A DNA stretch of 20,243 nucleotides from a virus. A program made the position numbers and the translations under genes. Shown here piece by piece: positions 2 through 19,910 of the stretch. The notes beneath the pieces are model-generated. The model saw only the letters and a program-made list of their open reading frames with translations. It was not told the origin of the DNA and made no database searches. The stretch is taken from positions 1 to 20,243 of the IMG/VR virus record IMGVR_UViG_3300044951_000832; one strand, written 5' to 3'. Position 1 is the stretch's first letter; every line of letters begins with the position of its first letter.

Positions 2-1066
2 GCTGATGTTTGGACTTACGCAACAAGAGAACTTACTGGATTCAACTTTACGGTTGATACAATAAAGGATTTGGATATAGATGCTATAAAAGCTAAAACA
101 GATAATCTTCCAATTAATCCCGCTTCTCAAACTAACTTAGATGTTGCAGTATCTACACGACTACCCACTTCATCTTACACAGCACCCGACAATGTAACGA
201 TTGGTTTAACAAGCTCAAATGTTCTATTGATACCAACTAATCCATTATTGGATAACGATATTAGATTGATTAATTTAGACACGCCTGTTTCTACAAGATT
301 AGCAACCGCTGGTTATGTAGCACCAGATAACGCTAGAATTGTCAATATAAATGCGATTGTTGAAACTATTCCTACGGATACTTTGACTAGCACAGACCCA
401 AGATTAAACGCTTTGGATACTACTATTTCAAGTCGCTCTACTTTAGTTGCGAGTGATGTTTGGGCAAATCCAACACGCACTCTAACTTCTGGTGGAGGAA
501 GTGGTGGTGCAACTGCTGAAGAAGTATGGTCTTATCAAACTAGGACAATTACTGGAGCATCTGGTTTAGCTTCTAGCATTTGGGAATATGAAAATAGAAC
601 TCTTACTAATTGGCGAAACATAGTTACAGATATTTGGAACGCTGTTCCCGCATGGTTTAGTAAGAAGATTGAACAATTAATTGAATCTGATTTATACATC
701 TATAAAGGTGTGACGAATAAGATTTCAATTGTTGGAGCGGGAAATATAGGTGGAAGTAGCAATATAGTTTTCACTGTGAAAAACAAACATACAGATTCTG
801 ATGCACAATCCATATTGAGAATAGAATTTCTAAATGGACTTACTATCTTAAATGGTGGTCAATATCCAATAGGAACAGATGCCTCAATATCAATATTAGA
901 TGAAGCGAGTGGAGATATTGAGATAATTCTCAATTCTACTCCGTCACTTAATTTGATTCCAAGTCAGAAAAGACTTTATGATATTAAAGCCAGAGTTGGG
1001 AATGATGTCAAATTGGTTTCTCGTGGAAAGATTGATATTCTACCAGATGTTACAAATGATATATAA
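2..1066 (+). CDS. Repeat-rich phage virion protein (5'-truncated)
   Basis: The reading frame is open from base 2, so the gene begins before the window. A TTG at 71 is not the start, because the residues before it (ADVWTYATRELT) are one more copy of the protein's own repeat. Copies visible: DVWTYATREL, DVWANPTRTLT, EVWSYQTRTIT, SIWEYENRTLT. A second repeat type, roughly NLDxxVSTRLxTxxYxAPDN, appears twice in the first third. A Gly/Ser stretch (GGGSGG) follows. The C-terminal ~125 residues look like a separate beta-rich domain ending in YDIKARVGND...GKIDILPDVT, a pattern I associate with the C-terminal domain of many phage structural proteins. It is followed 14 bases later by the ferritin-like gene. 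A fibre, whisker or neck role is inference; the virion location is likely, the exact function is not known. Confidence 0.6.
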   Translation, partial: ADVWTYATRELTGFNFTVDTIKDLDIDAIKAKTDNLPINPASQTNLDVAVSTRLPTSSYTAPDNVTIGLTSSNVLLIPTNPLLDNDIRLINLDTPVSTRLATAGYVAPDNARIVNINAIVETIPTDTLTSTDPRLNALDTTISSRSTLVASDVWANPTRTLTSGGGSGGATAEEVWSYQTRTITGASGLASSIWEYENRTLTNWRNIVTDIWNAVPAWFSKKIEQLIESDLYIYKGVTNKISIVGAGNIGGSSNIVFTVKNKHTDSDAQSILRIEFLNGLTILNGGQYPIGTDASISILDEASGDIEIILNSTPSLNLIPSQKRLYDIKARVGNDVKLVSRGKIDILPDVTNDI

Positions 1067-3685: not shown

Positions 3686-4651
3686 ATGACTCAAGAAAAA
3701 CTTTCTGAAAAATATGTTAAATCTTTTCTTTATGAACACGGTTATATTTTTGATGGAAAATTTGAATATTCTAAAAATAATATTACGCTAGAGGATTTTG
3801 ATGGATATTTTTATTTTATAAAATTTTCCGCATTAAAGTGGAATATAGAATTAAATGAGAAAATAGGAAGATTATATAAACCTATGAGATTTTCTACAAA
3901 AAATCCATACACCATAAATAATATTTGCAGATGGGTGGTTTTAAATAAAAAACCTTTTGAATTTATACGTGGTGATTATTTTGGAAATGAGGAGAAAAGT
4001 TTATATTTTAAGTGTGATAAATGTGAACAGGTGTGGGACACCAACTGGGGAATTATTTTTATGGGATGTGGTTGTCCTTTTTGTGGAAATATAAGAGTCG
4101 GGAATAATACTCTTGGAAAAGATAGACCAGACTTGGTAGACGAATGGAATTATTCTAAAAATGGCAACATAACTCCTTATGATGTTCGACCCCTTTCCAA
4201 TAAATCAGTTTGGTGGGTTTGTAAAAAAGGACATGAGTGGAAAATTGAAATATCCAATAGAAATGGAAAATTGCCAAGAAATAGAACTAATTGTCCAGTT
4301 TGTAATTTTTCAAAAGGAGAAAGAAAAATAAACAATTTCTTATTGGAAAATAATATAAAATTTATTACCCAAAAAAGATTTTTAAATTGTAAAAATAAAA
4401 AACCACTACCTTTTGATTTTTATTTACCAGAAATAAACACACTCGTAGAATACGATGGACAACAGCACTTTTATCCAGTTAGATTTGGAAATATCTCGGA
4501 AGATGATTCTATTGATAATCTTGTAACCGTAAGGAAAAATGACGAAATAAAAAGAATGTTTTGTGAGAAAGAACGTATAAACTTAGTAAGAATATCATAT
4601 TGTGATTTTGACAATATAGATGATATTTTAAAAAATGTATTTAATTTATAG
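3686..4651 (+). CDS. Free-standing EDxHD-type homing endonuclease with zinc ribbons
   Basis: A 321-residue protein with a DNA-binding N-terminal half and a nuclease C-terminus. Zinc ribbon 1: C110, C113, C128 or C130, C133. Zinc ribbon 2: EWNYSKNG...VWWVCKKGHEW with C179, H183, C203, C206 (the DUF4379-like 'probable zinc ribbon' pattern). The C-terminal Vsr-like domain has E212 (KGERKI), D244 (PFDFYLP), D257/H261 (EYDGQQH) and D286, matching the E-D-x-H-D order known from I-Bth0305I. Such enzymes cut alleles lacking the gene and spread by repair. It is visibly more AT-rich than the capsid genes and interrupts the scaffold-to-decoration order, consistent with an insertion. All catalytic-type residues are present, so it looks intact. 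Its TAG stop overlaps the ribosome binding site of the next gene. Confidence 0.85.
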   Translation: MTQEKLSEKYVKSFLYEHGYIFDGKFEYSKNNITLEDFDGYFYFIKFSALKWNIELNEKIGRLYKPMRFSTKNPYTINNICRWVVLNKKPFEFIRGDYFGNEEKSLYFKCDKCEQVWDTNWGIIFMGCGCPFCGNIRVGNNTLGKDRPDLVDEWNYSKNGNITPYDVRPLSNKSVWWVCKKGHEWKIEISNRNGKLPRNRTNCPVCNFSKGERKINNFLLENNIKFITQKRFLNCKNKKPLPFDFYLPEINTLVEYDGQQHFYPVRFGNISEDDSIDNLVTVRKNDEIKRMFCEKERINLVRISYCDFDNIDDILKNVFNL

Positions 4652-10202: not shown

Positions 10203-11246
10203 ATGGCAGAAAAATTATTTATGGTTTCTGTTGCCGATTACTATATGTATGATGGCGACCAAAATATGTTGGCGGCTGGAAAGACGCTTTCAGAATCGAC
10301 TATGGAATTGTCGGTTAATTCAACGGATGTTCGTGGTGGTAAGGGTGCGCCATTGCAGTATATTTACTTCAATTCTCCCGACATGAACATTACCTTGACA
10401 GATACTCAATTCAATCTCCCGTTCATTTCACTTTCAACTGGTGAAGCTATTGCCAATGGTGCAAATGTTTGGACGGAAGAGAATGTTACTTTGAGTGCTG
10501 GCTTGACTGGTACGGTTCTTGGGACTCCTGCGGGATTCTTGGGTAGTGCCACAAAATACGCTTGGGTTACACATAGCGATGGTTCAATTGAAAGATTGGC
10601 TTTCACTTCTCAAACATTCACTTCTGCTACAGGCACAAGTGGAGAAATTGTTTGCGCTAGATACTATGAGACAGATGCGGCGGCTAAAGAAGTTACAATC
10701 CCCGCAAATATCATTCCTTCAATCGTTACTCTCGTTCTTGATGCTCAATTGGCTTCAAGTGACGAATCGACAAATATTGTTGGTAGCGTTCAAATCGTGT
10801 TCCCCAAAGTTCAACTCACGGGCAACTTCACTCTCAGCATGACGATGGACGGAGTTTCTACGACTCCTCTTACCGCTCGTGCTTTGTCATACACCCCCGT
10901 AGGTGTGGCTGGTTGTGCAAATCAAGATGTGTTCGGTTACATCAAACAAATTCGTCTTGCCTCCAATTGGTATGATGATGTGTATGCTTTGGCTTTTGCT
11001 CCTTCAGAAATTGCCCTAGTTCATCCTGCGACTCGACAACTCGTGTTGAAAGCCCTTCATGAAAGTGGAAGTCCTTCAACTCCTCCGATGTCTGCTTTGA
11101 CTTTCGCTAGTGATACCGTTGGTGTTGCTACGGTTAGTGCGGGTGGTCTTGTGACAACGGTTGGTGCTGGAACAACCACCATCTCAGTCTTCATTACTGC
11201 TAAATCTACTGTTGACGCTTTCGCTGAAATTACTGTGACTATCTAA
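10203..11246 (+). CDS. Major tail tube protein with C-terminal Big_2 domain
   Basis: A 347-residue, beta-rich, Ser/Thr/Val-rich protein. Residues 1-265 would form the tube-protein fold: an N-terminal hairpin (MELSVNSTDVRGGKGAPLQYIYFNSPDMNITLTDTQF), a central insert around 85-165, and NIVGSVQIVFPKVQLTGNFTLSMTMDG. Residues about 268-347 form an Ig-like Big_2 domain (LTFASDTVGVATVSAGGLVTTVGAGTTTISV), which would stud the outside of the tail. AAGGAGG stands just before ATG 10203, and codon use is richer in GCT/GTT/CTC and CGT than in neighbours, as for an abundant protein. A strong hairpin follows. Only one tube gene and no sheath were found, supporting a siphovirus. Confidence 0.72.
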   Translation: MAEKLFMVSVADYYMYDGDQNMLAAGKTLSESTMELSVNSTDVRGGKGAPLQYIYFNSPDMNITLTDTQFNLPFISLSTGEAIANGANVWTEENVTLSAGLTGTVLGTPAGFLGSATKYAWVTHSDGSIERLAFTSQTFTSATGTSGEIVCARYYETDAAAKEVTIPANIIPSIVTLVLDAQLASSDESTNIVGSVQIVFPKVQLTGNFTLSMTMDGVSTTPLTARALSYTPVGVAGCANQDVFGYIKQIRLASNWYDDVYALAFAPSEIALVHPATRQLVLKALHESGSPSTPPMSALTFASDTVGVATVSAGGLVTTVGAGTTTISVFITAKSTVDAFAEITVTI

Positions 11247-11254
11247 ATAAAATA

Positions 11255-11288
11255 GTTTGTGGGGTTATAGAAATATAGCCCCACAAAT
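11255..11288 (+). terminator. Hairpin after the tail tube gene (GAAA tetraloop, no U-tract)
   Basis: Arms 11255-11269 and 11274-11288 pair over 15 bp, closing on a GAAA (GNRA) tetraloop at 11270-11273. The core is TGTGGGG/CCCCACA. Wobbles at 11265/11278 and 11255/11288 pair only in + strand RNA. Only AATAAAGG follows, so a classical intrinsic terminator is unlikely; a 3' stabiliser of the tube message or partial terminator fits better. Confidence 0.65.
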
Positions 11289-12564: not shown

Positions 12565-13164
12565 ATGGACAAAATTAAACTTAAGTTTTCAAAGAAATCA
12601 AATGTTGAAGTTTCATATTTCGGTGAGACAATATCTGTAAACCCAATTATAAAAATCTCGGAGCAATCTTTACTTAGAGAAACCTATTTGGAATCACTTT
12701 TCAAAGACGGTAAAGAAGGAATATGGGATGAACAATTTGCTGAGTTCATGTTTAGGCGTGAAATTCTAAGAAGTAAAACAAACATTGATATTGACTCCAT
12801 TGTGGAAGTAGAGGATGTAGACTCCTTGATTTGGGGTGAATTTTATGAGAAAGTATCTTCCGCAATTATAAACTATAAGGAAGTTGAAAGCCTTATTCAT
12901 TTCACTCTCTCAAACATCCTAAAGAAAATTGCTATCGAAAATAGCTCTGGGTTTTTGATTTCTGGATTGATTTCAAAGTTTAAACCATTCTTGGATGAAA
13001 TGATGAATATGAAACCAGAAGATTTAGATAAACTTAAGGCTTCTGCTAGTGAATTGATTGATAAAGCAAAACAAGAACCAATTGCCTCAATACTTTCCGA
13101 TATGAATGGAAACAAAACATCCCCCAAGAAAAAGTCCAAGAAGGATAAGGAATATGTTCAATAG
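12565..13164 (+). CDS. Tail assembly chaperone
   Basis: A 199-residue, helical, charged protein. The start (KIKLKFSKKSNVEVSYFGETISVNPIIKIS), SKTNIDIDSIVEVEDVDSLIWGEFYEKVSSAIINYKEVESL and a Lys/Asp-rich tail match the layout of the tail chaperone of Gram-positive phages, which binds the tape measure before tube assembly. GAGGA lies four bases before ATG 12565. Near its 3' end is ACA TCC CCC AAG, where the following ORF (+1 frame) is open. A +1 slip there would fuse the two as in the gpG-gpGT arrangement. The Lys-rich end (PKKKSKKDKEYVQ) is the unshifted product. Confidence 0.65.
   Translation: MDKIKLKFSKKSNVEVSYFGETISVNPIIKISEQSLLRETYLESLFKDGKEGIWDEQFAEFMFRREILRSKTNIDIDSIVEVEDVDSLIWGEFYEKVSSAIINYKEVESLIHFTLSNILKKIAIENSSGFLISGLISKFKPFLDEMMNMKPEDLDKLKASASELIDKAKQEPIASILSDMNGNKTSPKKKSKKDKEYVQ
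13121..13126 (+). promoter_or_regulatory. Candidate +1 frameshift site CCC-CCA
   Basis: In the chaperone frame the codons are TCC CCC AAG. A tRNA-Pro on CCC (13123-13125) could re-pair one base forward on CCA (13124-13126), moving into the frame of the zinc-ribbon ORF, which is open from 13106. Proline-codon +1 slippage is known in Listeria phage PSA structural genes. No downstream stimulatory structure was identified. Confidence 0.3.
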
Positions 13165-13441
13165 TGATACTAGTGTAATTGAAAATTTAGGAAGACTTAA
13201 ACATACAACTAAAGAAACTTGTGAAGATTGTGAAAAATCAAAATTGCAACTTAGAGTTAGAACCGTAGAAAGTGCCGATGTGGAATATTTATATTGTCCC
13301 AATTGTGGTTTTGAAAAATACAAAGAGCGTGTGAAGCTCGTGGATATTTATAAAAAACAAGCAAAAGAACTTTCGGAGTTTGAAGATAAAGTTGCGAAAA
13401 AACAAGAATTGAAAAATAAGAATAATTATAGGAGAAGATAA
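13154..13441 (+). CDS. Zinc-ribbon protein, possible frameshift partner of the tail chaperone
   Basis: Taken from ATG 13154 this is a 95-residue protein with a four-cysteine zinc ribbon: C23 and C26 (CEDC), C48 and C51 (CPNC), then a Lys/Glu-rich helical tail. GAAGGA stands 8 bases before this ATG, so independent translation is plausible with an 11-base overlap. The frame is also open back to 13106, just after TGA 13103, and crosses CCCCC 13121-13125 where the chaperone ribosome could slip +1, giving a fusion of about 291 residues. An ATG at 13106 lacks a ribosome binding site and is rejected. In other phages the second chaperone ORF is reached by frameshifting, so both modes may occur. Confidence 0.65.
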   Translation: MFNSDTSVIENLGRLKHTTKETCEDCEKSKLQLRVRTVESADVEYLYCPNCGFEKYKERVKLVDIYKKQAKELSEFEDKVAKKQELKNKNNYRRR

Positions 13442-13442
13442 A

Positions 13443-13796
13443 ATGAATTTAGAATTTTTAAAGGGTCGTGAAAGAATGTTGCTTGCTTTAGGCGGCGGAA
13501 TTTTGTTCATGATTCTTCAAGTATTATTTCCCTCTATGAAATTAGACGAAACTCAAACCATGATGTTTGTTGGTCTTTTGGGTGCGTATATGGTGGGAGA
13601 AGGTATCTCTGCTCAAAAACTTGGTGAGGGATTCAAAGATTTATTTAAATCACAAAAGTTTCAAGCCCTTCTTGCTGGAATTGCTGTGGTGATTGTTCAA
13701 GCCATTTTCCCTGACATCAAAGTATCAGAAGAACAGATTATGAGTTTAGTCGCCCTGTTGGGTACATTTATTCTTTCTGCTGGTGTTCGTAGTTAA
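13443..13796 (+). CDS. Internally duplicated membrane protein (holin-like topology)
   Basis: A 117-residue protein made of two related halves at an exact 60-residue offset without gaps. Each half has a hydrophobic helix, Q-x-x-FP, K, E-x-Q-x-M, then V-x-LLG and a second hydrophobic helix: FP at 29-30 and 89-90, E36/E96, Q38/Q98, M40/M100, LLG 45-47/105-107. By my count 17 of 47 aligned positions (11-57 against 71-117) are identical. Four membrane helices are predicted by eye. Single-copy forms of this helix-FP-helix unit are often labelled holin-like in phages, from memory, but no endolysin is near. AGGAGA precedes the ATG. A strong hairpin follows. Function is uncertain: holin, or a membrane-inserted virion part. 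Confidence 0.6.
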   Translation: MNLEFLKGRERMLLALGGGILFMILQVLFPSMKLDETQTMMFVGLLGAYMVGEGISAQKLGEGFKDLFKSQKFQALLAGIAVVIVQAIFPDIKVSEEQIMSLVALLGTFILSAGVRS

Positions 13797-13805
13797 CTTA
13801 TATAT

Positions 13806-13841
13806 TCTAGGTGGGTTTATAATGAAATAGACCCACCTAGA
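13806..13841 (+). terminator. Hairpin after the duplicated membrane protein (no U-tract)
   Basis: Arms 13806-13820 and 13827-13841 pair over 15 bp (core CTAGGTGGGT/ACCCACCTAG) around a 6-base loop, with one G-U wobble (13817/13830) that is valid only in + strand RNA. TAATTTAGAGG follows, so no U-tract. It separates the tail chaperone block from the resolvase/recombinase pair, whose ribosome binding site starts 7 bases downstream. Confidence 0.65.
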
Positions 13842-13859
13842 TAATTTAGAGGATTATAG

Positions 13860-14327
13860 ATGGAATATGTTATAGCGTTAGATTTATCTTTAAGTTCATC
13901 TGGAGTCGCTATCTTTAGTCAAGATGGTAAATTGAAGAAATTGATTACCATAGAAACTGATGCAAAATCAGAAACGCAAATTAGACTAAAAAAAATAGGG
14001 ACTGAATTAAACAAAATAAAGAAAGAATATAAACCTAAAGTTGTAGTGTCAGAACACGGATTTACAAGATTTCATAAAAGTACACAATTACTTTTCATGG
14101 TACACGGTATATCTCAATACATATATTCGGACAAAGAAATAGTTTATTATTATCCTATGACAATTAGAAAAATAGTTTGTGGTAAAGGGAATGTAGATAA
14201 GGAATATGTTCGAGATTTTATAAATAGTAAATATGGGAACATAAAATTTAAAAATTATGATGAATCTGACGCTACGGCTATTGGTCTAGCATACTTCATA
14301 GATACGGGAGTTATTACAAATGATTAA
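13860..14327 (+). CDS. RuvC-like Holliday junction resolvase
   Basis: A 155-residue RNase H-fold nuclease of the RuvC type. Acidic residues sit where RuvC has them: D8 (IALDLSLSSSGVAIF), E65 (VVVSEHGF), D134 and D137 (YDESDATAIGLAYF). The segment PMTIRKIVCGKGNVDKEYV matches the RuvC stretch P-x-x-x-K-x-x-x-x-G-x-G-x-x-x-K. Length is close to cellular RuvC. The enzyme would cut four-way junctions, in phages to debranch replicating DNA before packaging. It overlaps the tyrosine recombinase by 8 bases, so the two are co-translated. Being inside a tail cluster is unusual; these genes normally lie with replication functions. AGAGG precedes ATG 13860 at good spacing. Confidence 0.85.
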   Translation: MEYVIALDLSLSSSGVAIFSQDGKLKKLITIETDAKSETQIRLKKIGTELNKIKKEYKPKVVVSEHGFTRFHKSTQLLFMVHGISQYIYSDKEIVYYYPMTIRKIVCGKGNVDKEYVRDFINSKYGNIKFKNYDESDATAIGLAYFIDTGVITND

Positions 14328-15297
14328 AATTGATGATGTAACGGAGTCGGATTGGAATTCTATAAATCCATTTAATAAAAAAATAGTGGAGGAATTTTTA
14401 GAACAATCCACAACACTTAGTGACCAAACACTTAAACAATATAAATCATCTTTGCAGATATATTTCTTTTGGGTAAAGAAGAATGCTGGAGATAAGTCTT
14501 TTTACGAATTGAAATCTCGTGATTTTTTATTTTATCAAAATTGGCTTACAAAAATGGAACAATCTTCTGCGTCAATTAGATTTAAAAGAAGTGCTGTAAG
14601 TAGTTTCAATAATTATGTTTCTTTGTTTTACGGTGAGGAATATAAAGACTTCCGAAATTATATAAATAAAGGAATTCCCTTACCCCCAAGTAACTTTGTA
14701 AACGAAAAGAAACCATTAAACATTGGTGAGTACAAACTACTTTGTGAAGCATTGGAGAAAGAAGAACGGTGGCAAATATTAGCATATCTAAAGTTCTCTT
14801 TTTCTACTGGTGCGAGAAGAAGTGAAGTCAGGCAATTGCTAAAAGAAGTTTCTAATTATGAACCAAAAGTTTTAGAATCTAATGGTTCAAAGATAAATGT
14901 TTACACTACCCATAAACTCCGATGCAAAGGAAGAGGAAAAACCGGTAAGATTAGACAGTTGAACTTTGACCAAGAGGCAATGGACTCCATTAAGAAATGG
15001 TTAGAAGTTAGAGGTGATGATGACTGTCCTTATGTTTTCGTCACTAAGGAAAACGGGAAATATTCAAATGTTGGAGAATCTACATTTAATTCTTGGGCAG
15101 AAAATCACTTAGAAAGACTTGTCGGAAGAAGAGTTCACCCACATGCACTCCGAGAGTCACGGGCAACAAGTATGGTAGTGGAACAAGGAAAAGATATTTC
15201 CTCAGTTCAGAAATTACTTGGGCATGCGTCATCTGCAACTTCAGAAATTTACATTATTCGTGAAGATAAAGATGAGGCAGATGACGCATTTTTGTAA
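14320..15297 (+). CDS. Tyrosine recombinase (integrase/Xer-type)
   Basis: A 325-residue enzyme with both expected domains. Residues 18-115 are a SAM-like core-binding domain (LKQYKSSLQIYFFWVKKN ... SSFNNYVSLF). The catalytic domain carries the full set: R166 (STGARRSEV), K203 (CKGRGK), H275 and R278 (HPHALRES), H302 (LLGHASS) and nucleophile Y311 (SEIYII). It should join, cut or resolve DNA at specific sites through a 3' phosphotyrosine. Start ATG 14320 has GGGAG nine bases upstream inside the resolvase gene. No nearby attachment-type repeat pair or excisionase was seen. It could be a prophage integrase placed oddly, a multimer resolver like Xer, or cargo that arrived with the resolvase. Confidence 0.88.
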   Translation: MIKIDDVTESDWNSINPFNKKIVEEFLEQSTTLSDQTLKQYKSSLQIYFFWVKKNAGDKSFYELKSRDFLFYQNWLTKMEQSSASIRFKRSAVSSFNNYVSLFYGEEYKDFRNYINKGIPLPPSNFVNEKKPLNIGEYKLLCEALEKEERWQILAYLKFSFSTGARRSEVRQLLKEVSNYEPKVLESNGSKINVYTTHKLRCKGRGKTGKIRQLNFDQEAMDSIKKWLEVRGDDDCPYVFVTKENGKYSNVGESTFNSWAENHLERLVGRRVHPHALRESRATSMVVEQGKDISSVQKLLGHASSATSEIYIIREDKDEADDAFL

Positions 15298-15344: not shown

Positions 15345-15947
15345 ATGCCAAATATGACGAGTGAGTCTCAAATAAAAAAAATACTCAATGACGCAATGTT
15401 AAAATGTTTAAATGAAGTAAGTGTAGAGGTGAGAAAAGACCTTCAAGAATATATCAAAATGGATGTGTACGAATATGACTACTTTCCCAATTATAAGTAT
15501 GAGGGTGGAAATGGCACATTCGGAAGTGGTAAACCGTCCTTTGAATTTGAAGAGGCTTTCAGATGGAAAGAAACTACTCGCTCCACTAATGAAGTAAAAA
15601 AAAGACTTTATTATGCTTGGGAAAATATGACGATTGACCGACATACAGGTAGGCATTTTGAAGATGGAAGAGATACGAGAAAAGAACTTGCTGAAATGCT
15701 GAATGTTTACGGAATTGTTGGCAATAAGAAAAGAAGTGCTTATTGGGATAATTTCATAAGTGTTAGCGATAAAGTTTTTAAAGTTTATTTCGAAAGTTCG
15801 ATGAAAAAGAAAGGATTTAAAATTGTTGAAAATGAACTTGCTTGGATGTCTCAGTTTACTGGCGGTACTGATTTGAAATCCGCAGTAAATGGAATGATGG
15901 GAGCAATGGATAAGTTTCTATATGATATATATCCAAGTTTAATATAA
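15345..15947 (+). CDS. Hypothetical minor virion protein preceding the tape measure
   Basis: A 200-residue protein: helical N-terminus (SQIKKILNDAMLKCLNEVSVEVRKDLQEYI), an aromatic stretch (DVYEYDYFPNYKYEGGNGTFGSGKPSFEFEEAFRW) and a helical end (LAWMSQFTGGTDLKSAVNGMMGAMDKFLYDIYPSLI). The pattern DLQEYI...VYEYDY resembles small phage proteins near neck and tail genes as I recall them. AGGAGA stands before ATG 15345. It is the last gene before the tape measure. Function is not known; a tail-assembly or minor structural part is likely from context. Confidence 0.55.
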   Translation: MPNMTSESQIKKILNDAMLKCLNEVSVEVRKDLQEYIKMDVYEYDYFPNYKYEGGNGTFGSGKPSFEFEEAFRWKETTRSTNEVKKRLYYAWENMTIDRHTGRHFEDGRDTRKELAEMLNVYGIVGNKKRSAYWDNFISVSDKVFKVYFESSMKKKGFKIVENELAWMSQFTGGTDLKSAVNGMMGAMDKFLYDIYPSLI

Positions 15948-19873: not shown

Positions 19874-19910
19874 ATAATACCCTTCAGTCTAATGGATTGG
19901 AGGGTATTAT
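19874..19910 (+). terminator. Hairpin after the tape-measure gene (no U-tract)
   Basis: Arms 19874-19889 and 19895-19910 pair over 16 bp (core TAATACCCT/AGGGTATTA) around a 5-base loop, with two G-U wobbles (19884/19900 and 19887/19897) possible only in + RNA. TAAATATGAAA follows, so no U-tract. It begins two bases after the stop codon. Confidence 0.65.

Follow-up and report, generated by a model that had tools for sequence, protein, structure and literature searches.

A predicted RuvC-family Holliday-junction resolvase adjoins a YomM-like tyrosine recombinase in the late gene cluster of uncultured phages

The window analyzed here, a 20,243-base IMG/VR fragment taken at its full length, is a late structural cluster with all genes on one strand. 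The features around the two recombination genes are listed in Table 1. An earlier note on this DNA had described a RuvC-like resolvase and a tyrosine recombinase that overlap by 8 bases and keep all catalytic residues, and the open reading frames, the profile matches and the residues agreed with that description. The layout was also as described there, with the pair lying between a hairpin, which proved to be real, and the genes leading to the tape measure gene. The closest relative, L003, has a holin-like gene at this position that is 81% identical to that of the window; a holin also adjoined the resolvase in the Lactococcus phages WRP3 and AM4. The product of the small gene that separates the pair from the tape measure gene had no Pfam family above the cut-off and no PHROG match. 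Further upstream, the gene at 10203-11246 matched profiles of virion structural proteins and of major tail proteins. No Rfam family or tRNA was detected in the window.

Table 1. Features at and around the resolvase–recombinase pair in the window.
Feature	Position	Strand	Evidence
Holin-like gene, directly 5' of the pair	13443..13796	+	phrog_9987 holin, 4e-7
Hairpin between holin and resolvase genes	13799..13848 (stem 13806-13841)	+	Inverted repeat, no U-tract
Predicted RuvC-family Holliday-junction resolvase gene, 155 aa	13860..14327	+	Pfam RuvC, 4e-6; phrog_159, 7e-27
Xer/Cre-type tyrosine recombinase gene, YomM-like, 325 aa	14320..15297	+	Pfam Phage_integrase, 2e-20; phrog_1, 2e-38
Palindromic 18-mer ATAAAATAGGGATTTTAT, directly 3' of the recombinase stop codon	15303..15320	+	Identical in L003/L005
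Small gene after the pair, before the tape measure gene	15345..15947	+	L003 counterpart at this position, 52% identical
Tape measure protein gene, 1297 aa	15978..19871	+	PhageMin_Tail, 2e-31; phrog_4211 tape measure, 2e-84

The catalytic residues of the resolvase were intact (D8, E65, D134, and D137). Its Pfam RuvC score was 27.2 bits against a cut-off of 22.2, and its profile matched the solved RuvC structure 7w8d at 9e-13. The DEDD residues were kept in 77 of the 83 family members. On these sequence features, the protein is assigned to the RuvC family of Holliday-junction resolvases and is predicted to cleave four-way junctions. The active site of the recombinase was likewise complete (R166, E169, K203, H275, R278, H302, and Y311), and a SAM-like domain match at the N-terminus showed that the core-binding domain was present along with the catalytic domain. 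The AlphaFold model was confident, with a mean pLDDT of 88.7, and its top PDB matches were XerA and XerH. The residues R, H, R, H/W, and Y were kept in 75 of 80 dereplicated homologues, the window recombinase included.

Homologues of the recombinase were found by tblastn in 152 phage records, and the identity of the window protein with YomM of SPbeta was 33%. The tape measure gene is closely preceded by the recombinase gene in SPbeta (yomM), BcoS-136, WRP3, AM4, E3, Perkons, PhiSepi-HH3, Sundance, and FADO. In these nine phages the two genes follow each other directly or are separated by one to a few small genes, apart from an insertion of about 6.8 kb between them in Geobacillus phage E3. The window recombinase is classed as YomM-like since it is homologous to YomM and its gene likewise precedes the tape measure gene. 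Sextaecvirus 6ec and Lactobacillus phage ATCC 8014-B2 carry more distant homologues, which lie at the end of the late operon or close to it. A recombinase of the Xer/Cre type before the tape measure gene is thus carried by many large phages, mostly of Gram-positive bacteria. The earlier note had regarded the recombinase as out of place in a tail cluster; this view does not hold, since the location is the usual one for this group of large phages. The unusual part is the adjoining resolvase and its exchange between the RuvC and RusA families.

The recombinase was 89.5% identical in amino acids to that of L003, the highest value among 15 compared proteins, while the putative major capsid protein was 71% identical. 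The divergence at four-fold sites was equal (0.48 for the recombinase against 0.46), which rules out a recent transfer of the gene and indicates that the protein is under strong constraint. SPbeta has been under study for decades. No study of YomM was found in the literature searched, which was covered in part, and the modes of genome replication and packaging of SPbeta are not established (PMC8270828).

A resolvase beside the recombinase was looked for in two ways. A search of IMG/VR with the RuvC profile, which selects on RuvC, gave 56 loci, and a same-strand recombinase lay downstream of RuvC in 24 of them; the two genes usually overlap or abut, and the tape measure gene comes after them. 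To offset this selection, a second scan was made by the recombinase alone. The loci were dereplicated, and only those with enough flank were counted; a locus was scored as having no resolvase when neither the RuvC nor the RusA family was detected within 2.1 kb upstream, and the counts rest on profile searches of fragmentary IMG/VR records. In the A6 recombinase clade, a resolvase was found within this distance in 13 of 14 dereplicated loci, usually abutting (RuvC in 11 and RusA in 2, with no locus having the two). For the A5 clade, to which the window belongs, the figure was 8 of 39 loci, and most had none. A third recombinase clade (L049, L052, L068) also sits after RuvC, which brings the number of recombinase clades occupying the slot to three. 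In total, the pair was present in about 20–25 dereplicated loci, which are too diverged to stem from one recent event; where the flank was long enough, the tape measure gene mostly lay downstream. The recurrence on which the earlier note mainly staked its reading was therefore found. In the literature searched, again covered in part, no description of the pairing was met with, and what is newly noted here is a predicted Holliday-junction resolvase adjoining the recombinase in dozens of uncultured phages.

In several loci, the RuvC slot was occupied by a RusA-type open reading frame (phrog_34/1682, down to 3e-19). The RusA-like proteins matched the structure of Escherichia coli RusA at 7e-9 in a profile search; they were missed by Pfam at E 0.01 and detected by PHROGs and the solved-structure profile. 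The RusA assignment from these profiles is firm. None of these loci had both RuvC and RusA. The RuvC state was clustered on the recombinase tree, where the RusA state required six changes. The exchange is visible between pairs of loci: L173 has the gene order of L042 with RusA replacing RuvC, and the same replacement distinguishes L182 from L183 and L092 from L093, where the neighboring gene order is largely shared. Furthermore, the two genes of the window have separate affinities. In L003, the recombinase was 90% identical and the RuvC only 41% identical to the window proteins, whereas the RuvCs adjoining A6-clade recombinases were about 53% identical to the window RuvC and the recombinases next to them only about 25% identical to the window recombinase.

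Since the adjacency persists while either gene is exchanged, simple co-inheritance is hard to sustain, and a pair that moves as a unit does not fit. The suggestion of the earlier note that it might be a cassette moving between late regions was not supported, because the recombinase is fixed in the cluster and the resolvase is exchanged independently. The replacement of one resolvase family by another in the same slot indicates that both enzymes probably act together on replicated phage DNA. Adjacency kept with changing partners supports a joint late role on phage DNA and speaks against an integrase, and the retention of a resolvase beside the recombinase, swapped for one of an unrelated family, points to a specific DNA step.

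Phage Holliday-junction resolvases (T4 gp49, T7 gp3, and those of the RuvC and RusA types) are needed for debranching DNA before packaging. We give about even weight to the reading that the pair is a late DNA-processing unit of large siphophages, combining junction cutting with site-specific recombination on replicated DNA. Late in infection, the resolvase would cut the branched junctions arising from recombination-dependent concatemer replication and make the DNA packageable. The recombinase, of Xer/Cre type, may act on the phage genome at a dif- or lox-like site of its own, and this recombination would control the monomer or circle state around packaging, or the re-circularization of the genome. 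The genes would stay together since both enzymes would act on junctions of replicated DNA at the same stage. What the two enzyme families do is established; we infer the late timing (from gene position alone), the shared substrate, and the outcome of the reaction. The complete active sites, the conservation of the recombinase in the structural cluster, and the filling of the slot before it by RuvC or RusA are in agreement with this reading. Against it, most A5-clade loci had no adjacent resolvase, and more than 20 kb separates the resolvase from the recombinase in the isolated Lactococcus, Bacillus, and Geobacillus phages. The altered second catalytic Arg of the SPbeta-type branch, described below, also limits confidence in it. 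In addition, SPbeta probably packages by a headful mechanism from concatemers (PMC8270828), and late resolution into monomers would therefore not be clearly useful and could even hinder packaging. The proposal of the earlier note that the pair acts late on replicated DNA is the best reading, as the recombinase sits among late genes in the relatives, while a target site was not found.

Among the alternatives, a main role of the recombinase in DNA binding or assembly, either regulating late genes or being carried with the DNA, is unlikely, though worth weighing. The SPbeta-type branch lends this some support. This RuvC is missing from SPbeta, Perkons, and PhiSepi-HH3; their recombinase gene is retained, with the second catalytic Arg replaced by Lys, which suggests from the sequence that activity is reduced or lost in this branch; part of the family may therefore have changed to a non-catalytic function. 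The same phage also provides a precedent, since the SPbeta repressor MrpR has a tyrosine-recombinase fold and no recombinase activity (PMC10516654). Pure binding would require none of the catalytic residues kept in 75 of 80 homologues, including that of the window, and it leaves the resolvase neighbor unexplained. The Lys replacement (NPHLFK), with the other active-site residues kept, was seen in L008 (SPbeta yomM), L011, L013, L015, and L048.

Tyrosine recombinases proceed through a Holliday junction. The two enzymes could accordingly form one coupled reaction, in which the recombinase makes the first strand exchange and the adjoining RuvC or RusA resolves the junction; a resolvase of any family would then be needed beside the recombinase. 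We regard this as improbable, and judge equally improbable its wider form, a two-enzyme system whose interchangeable resolvase finishes or controls the reaction late, tied to packaging or genome circularization. The alternation of the unrelated RuvC and RusA next to three recombinase clades would fit. However, the recombinases adjoining resolvases retain every residue that a complete reaction requires, and many complete recombinases have no adjacent resolvase.

There is a rather small chance that the two are independent late genes, neighbors by shared ancestry and without joint function. Phage gene order is inherited, the RuvC state clusters on the tree, and homing endonuclease genes of the GIY-YIG type have been inserted between the pair without obvious harm. 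The repeated replacement of RuvC by RusA in one slot and the replacement of the resolvase independently of the recombinase (window versus L003), with the adjacency persisting in both cases, argue against it. The GIY-YIG genes, identified by eye, separate the recombinase from its RuvC or RusA neighbor in L033, L037, L097, L182, L185, and L186.

That the gene is an ordinary prophage integrase, placed among tail genes by chance, is very unlikely, even though the Pfam and PHROG matches are to integrase families and some of the relatives are prophages. The gene lies inside the head and tail genes in the window and in prophage relatives; in prophage L151, it is internal, with head genes upstream and the tape measure gene downstream. 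As the earlier note had stated, no repressor or att-like repeat was found beside the gene in the window, which is a fragment and does not cover the rest of the genome, and no candidate repeats were found. It had also proposed to look for a second integrase in the genome; among the relatives, many carry another tyrosine-recombinase gene elsewhere. Moreover, the gene is intact in Lactococcus 949-type phages, which we take to be lytic, and thus it is not bound to lysogeny; lytic relatives that can be cultured include Lactococcus 949 and Bacillus BcoS-136. SPbeta itself integrates by the serine recombinase SprA (PMC10516654). Site-specific inversion switching tail genes is hardly credible: tail genes are near and tyrosine recombinases are able to invert DNA, but no inverted pair of at least 15 bp lying more than 60 bp apart was found in the window or in nine compared loci (L002, L003, L092, L097, L151, L161, L175, L177, and L183).

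Candidate recombination sites were sought around the pair. The hairpin before the resolvase gene has 15-bp arms, a 6-nt loop, and an RNA z-score of −5.7. It is one of three strong intergenic hairpins (z about −6) without a U-tract, which follow the 10203-11246 gene (11255-11288), the holin-like gene, and the tape measure gene (19874-19910); it is therefore not specific to the pair. The three hairpins are possibly RNA 3' ends or processing sites. The 15-6-15 inverted repeat was rejected as a lox-like site because L003, whose recombinase is 90% identical, lacks it at this position, and because two similar hairpins end other genes.

The 18-mer after the recombinase gene is conserved in L003, and a 17/18 match lies near SPbeta yomM. 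It was rejected as a recombination site because contigs that lack the recombinase, or have it elsewhere, also contain exact copies, and it is probably a repeated regulatory element. The wider form ATAAAA-N6-TTTTAT had 30 copies in FADO (L220-L228) and 13 in BcoS-136 (L205-L212), compared with 1 and 0 copies, respectively, of the reversed control, and many of the copies lie just upstream of ribosome-binding sites. The best form of the palindrome was ACTGGATAAAA-N6-TTTTATCCAGT; the 18-mer of the window belongs to this repeated element. The palindrome could be the operator of an MrpR-like repressor; its 11-6-11 layout resembles the sites of tyrosine recombinases. Palindromes of the 11-6..8-11 form shared between four complete relatives and the window were only regulatory or terminator-like repeats, and no conserved candidate site common to the window and WRP3, BcoS-136, or FADO was found.

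Compared with known systems, the nearest are YomM of SPbeta and its homologues in Lactococcus 949/WRP3, Kenyattavirus BcoS-136, FADO, and Brevibacillus Sundance, with about 24–50% identity. As in the window, their recombinase gene belongs to the late structural cluster and shortly precedes the tape measure gene, but their slot holds a tail-type gene (phrog_7299 in BcoS-136) or a small unassigned gene in place of a resolvase, and the SPbeta-type members differ in the Lys at the second catalytic Arg. XerC/D, XerA, XerH, and phage P1 Cre resemble the window recombinase in fold, size, and catalytic residues, and site-specific action on the element's own genome is a probable common feature. Unlike these, the window recombinase lies among phage tail genes and is paired with a predicted Holliday-junction resolvase, and the search for a dif or lox site gave none. 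The window resolvase is similar to T4 gp49, T7 gp3, and the RuvC- and RusA-type phage resolvases in family, intact active site, and late-region position. What sets it apart is its position right in front of a recombinase and the tape measure gene, where RuvC and RusA are exchanged. MrpR (YopR), the master repressor of SPbeta, has the tyrosine-recombinase fold and belongs to the same phage superfamily as the window protein; it has lost the catalytic residues and acts as a repressor, whereas the window recombinase keeps all of them.

Several further arrangements were noted. In L038, a natural recombinase-less variant, RuvC is immediately followed by the tape measure gene. In several Lachnospiraceae and Clostridia prophages (L117, L128, L105, and relatives), the window-type gene is placed not before the tape measure gene but a few genes before putative terminase genes, with HU-like DNA-binding genes nearby in some; these neighbors were identified by eye. 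In the window, the open reading frames 12565-13164 and 13106-13441 overlap upstream of the tape measure gene; they could encode tail assembly chaperones joined by a programmed frameshift, and L003 lacks the overlap. An HNH/homing-type endonuclease gene has been inserted among the head genes at 3686-4651 (phrog_559, E 2e-41).
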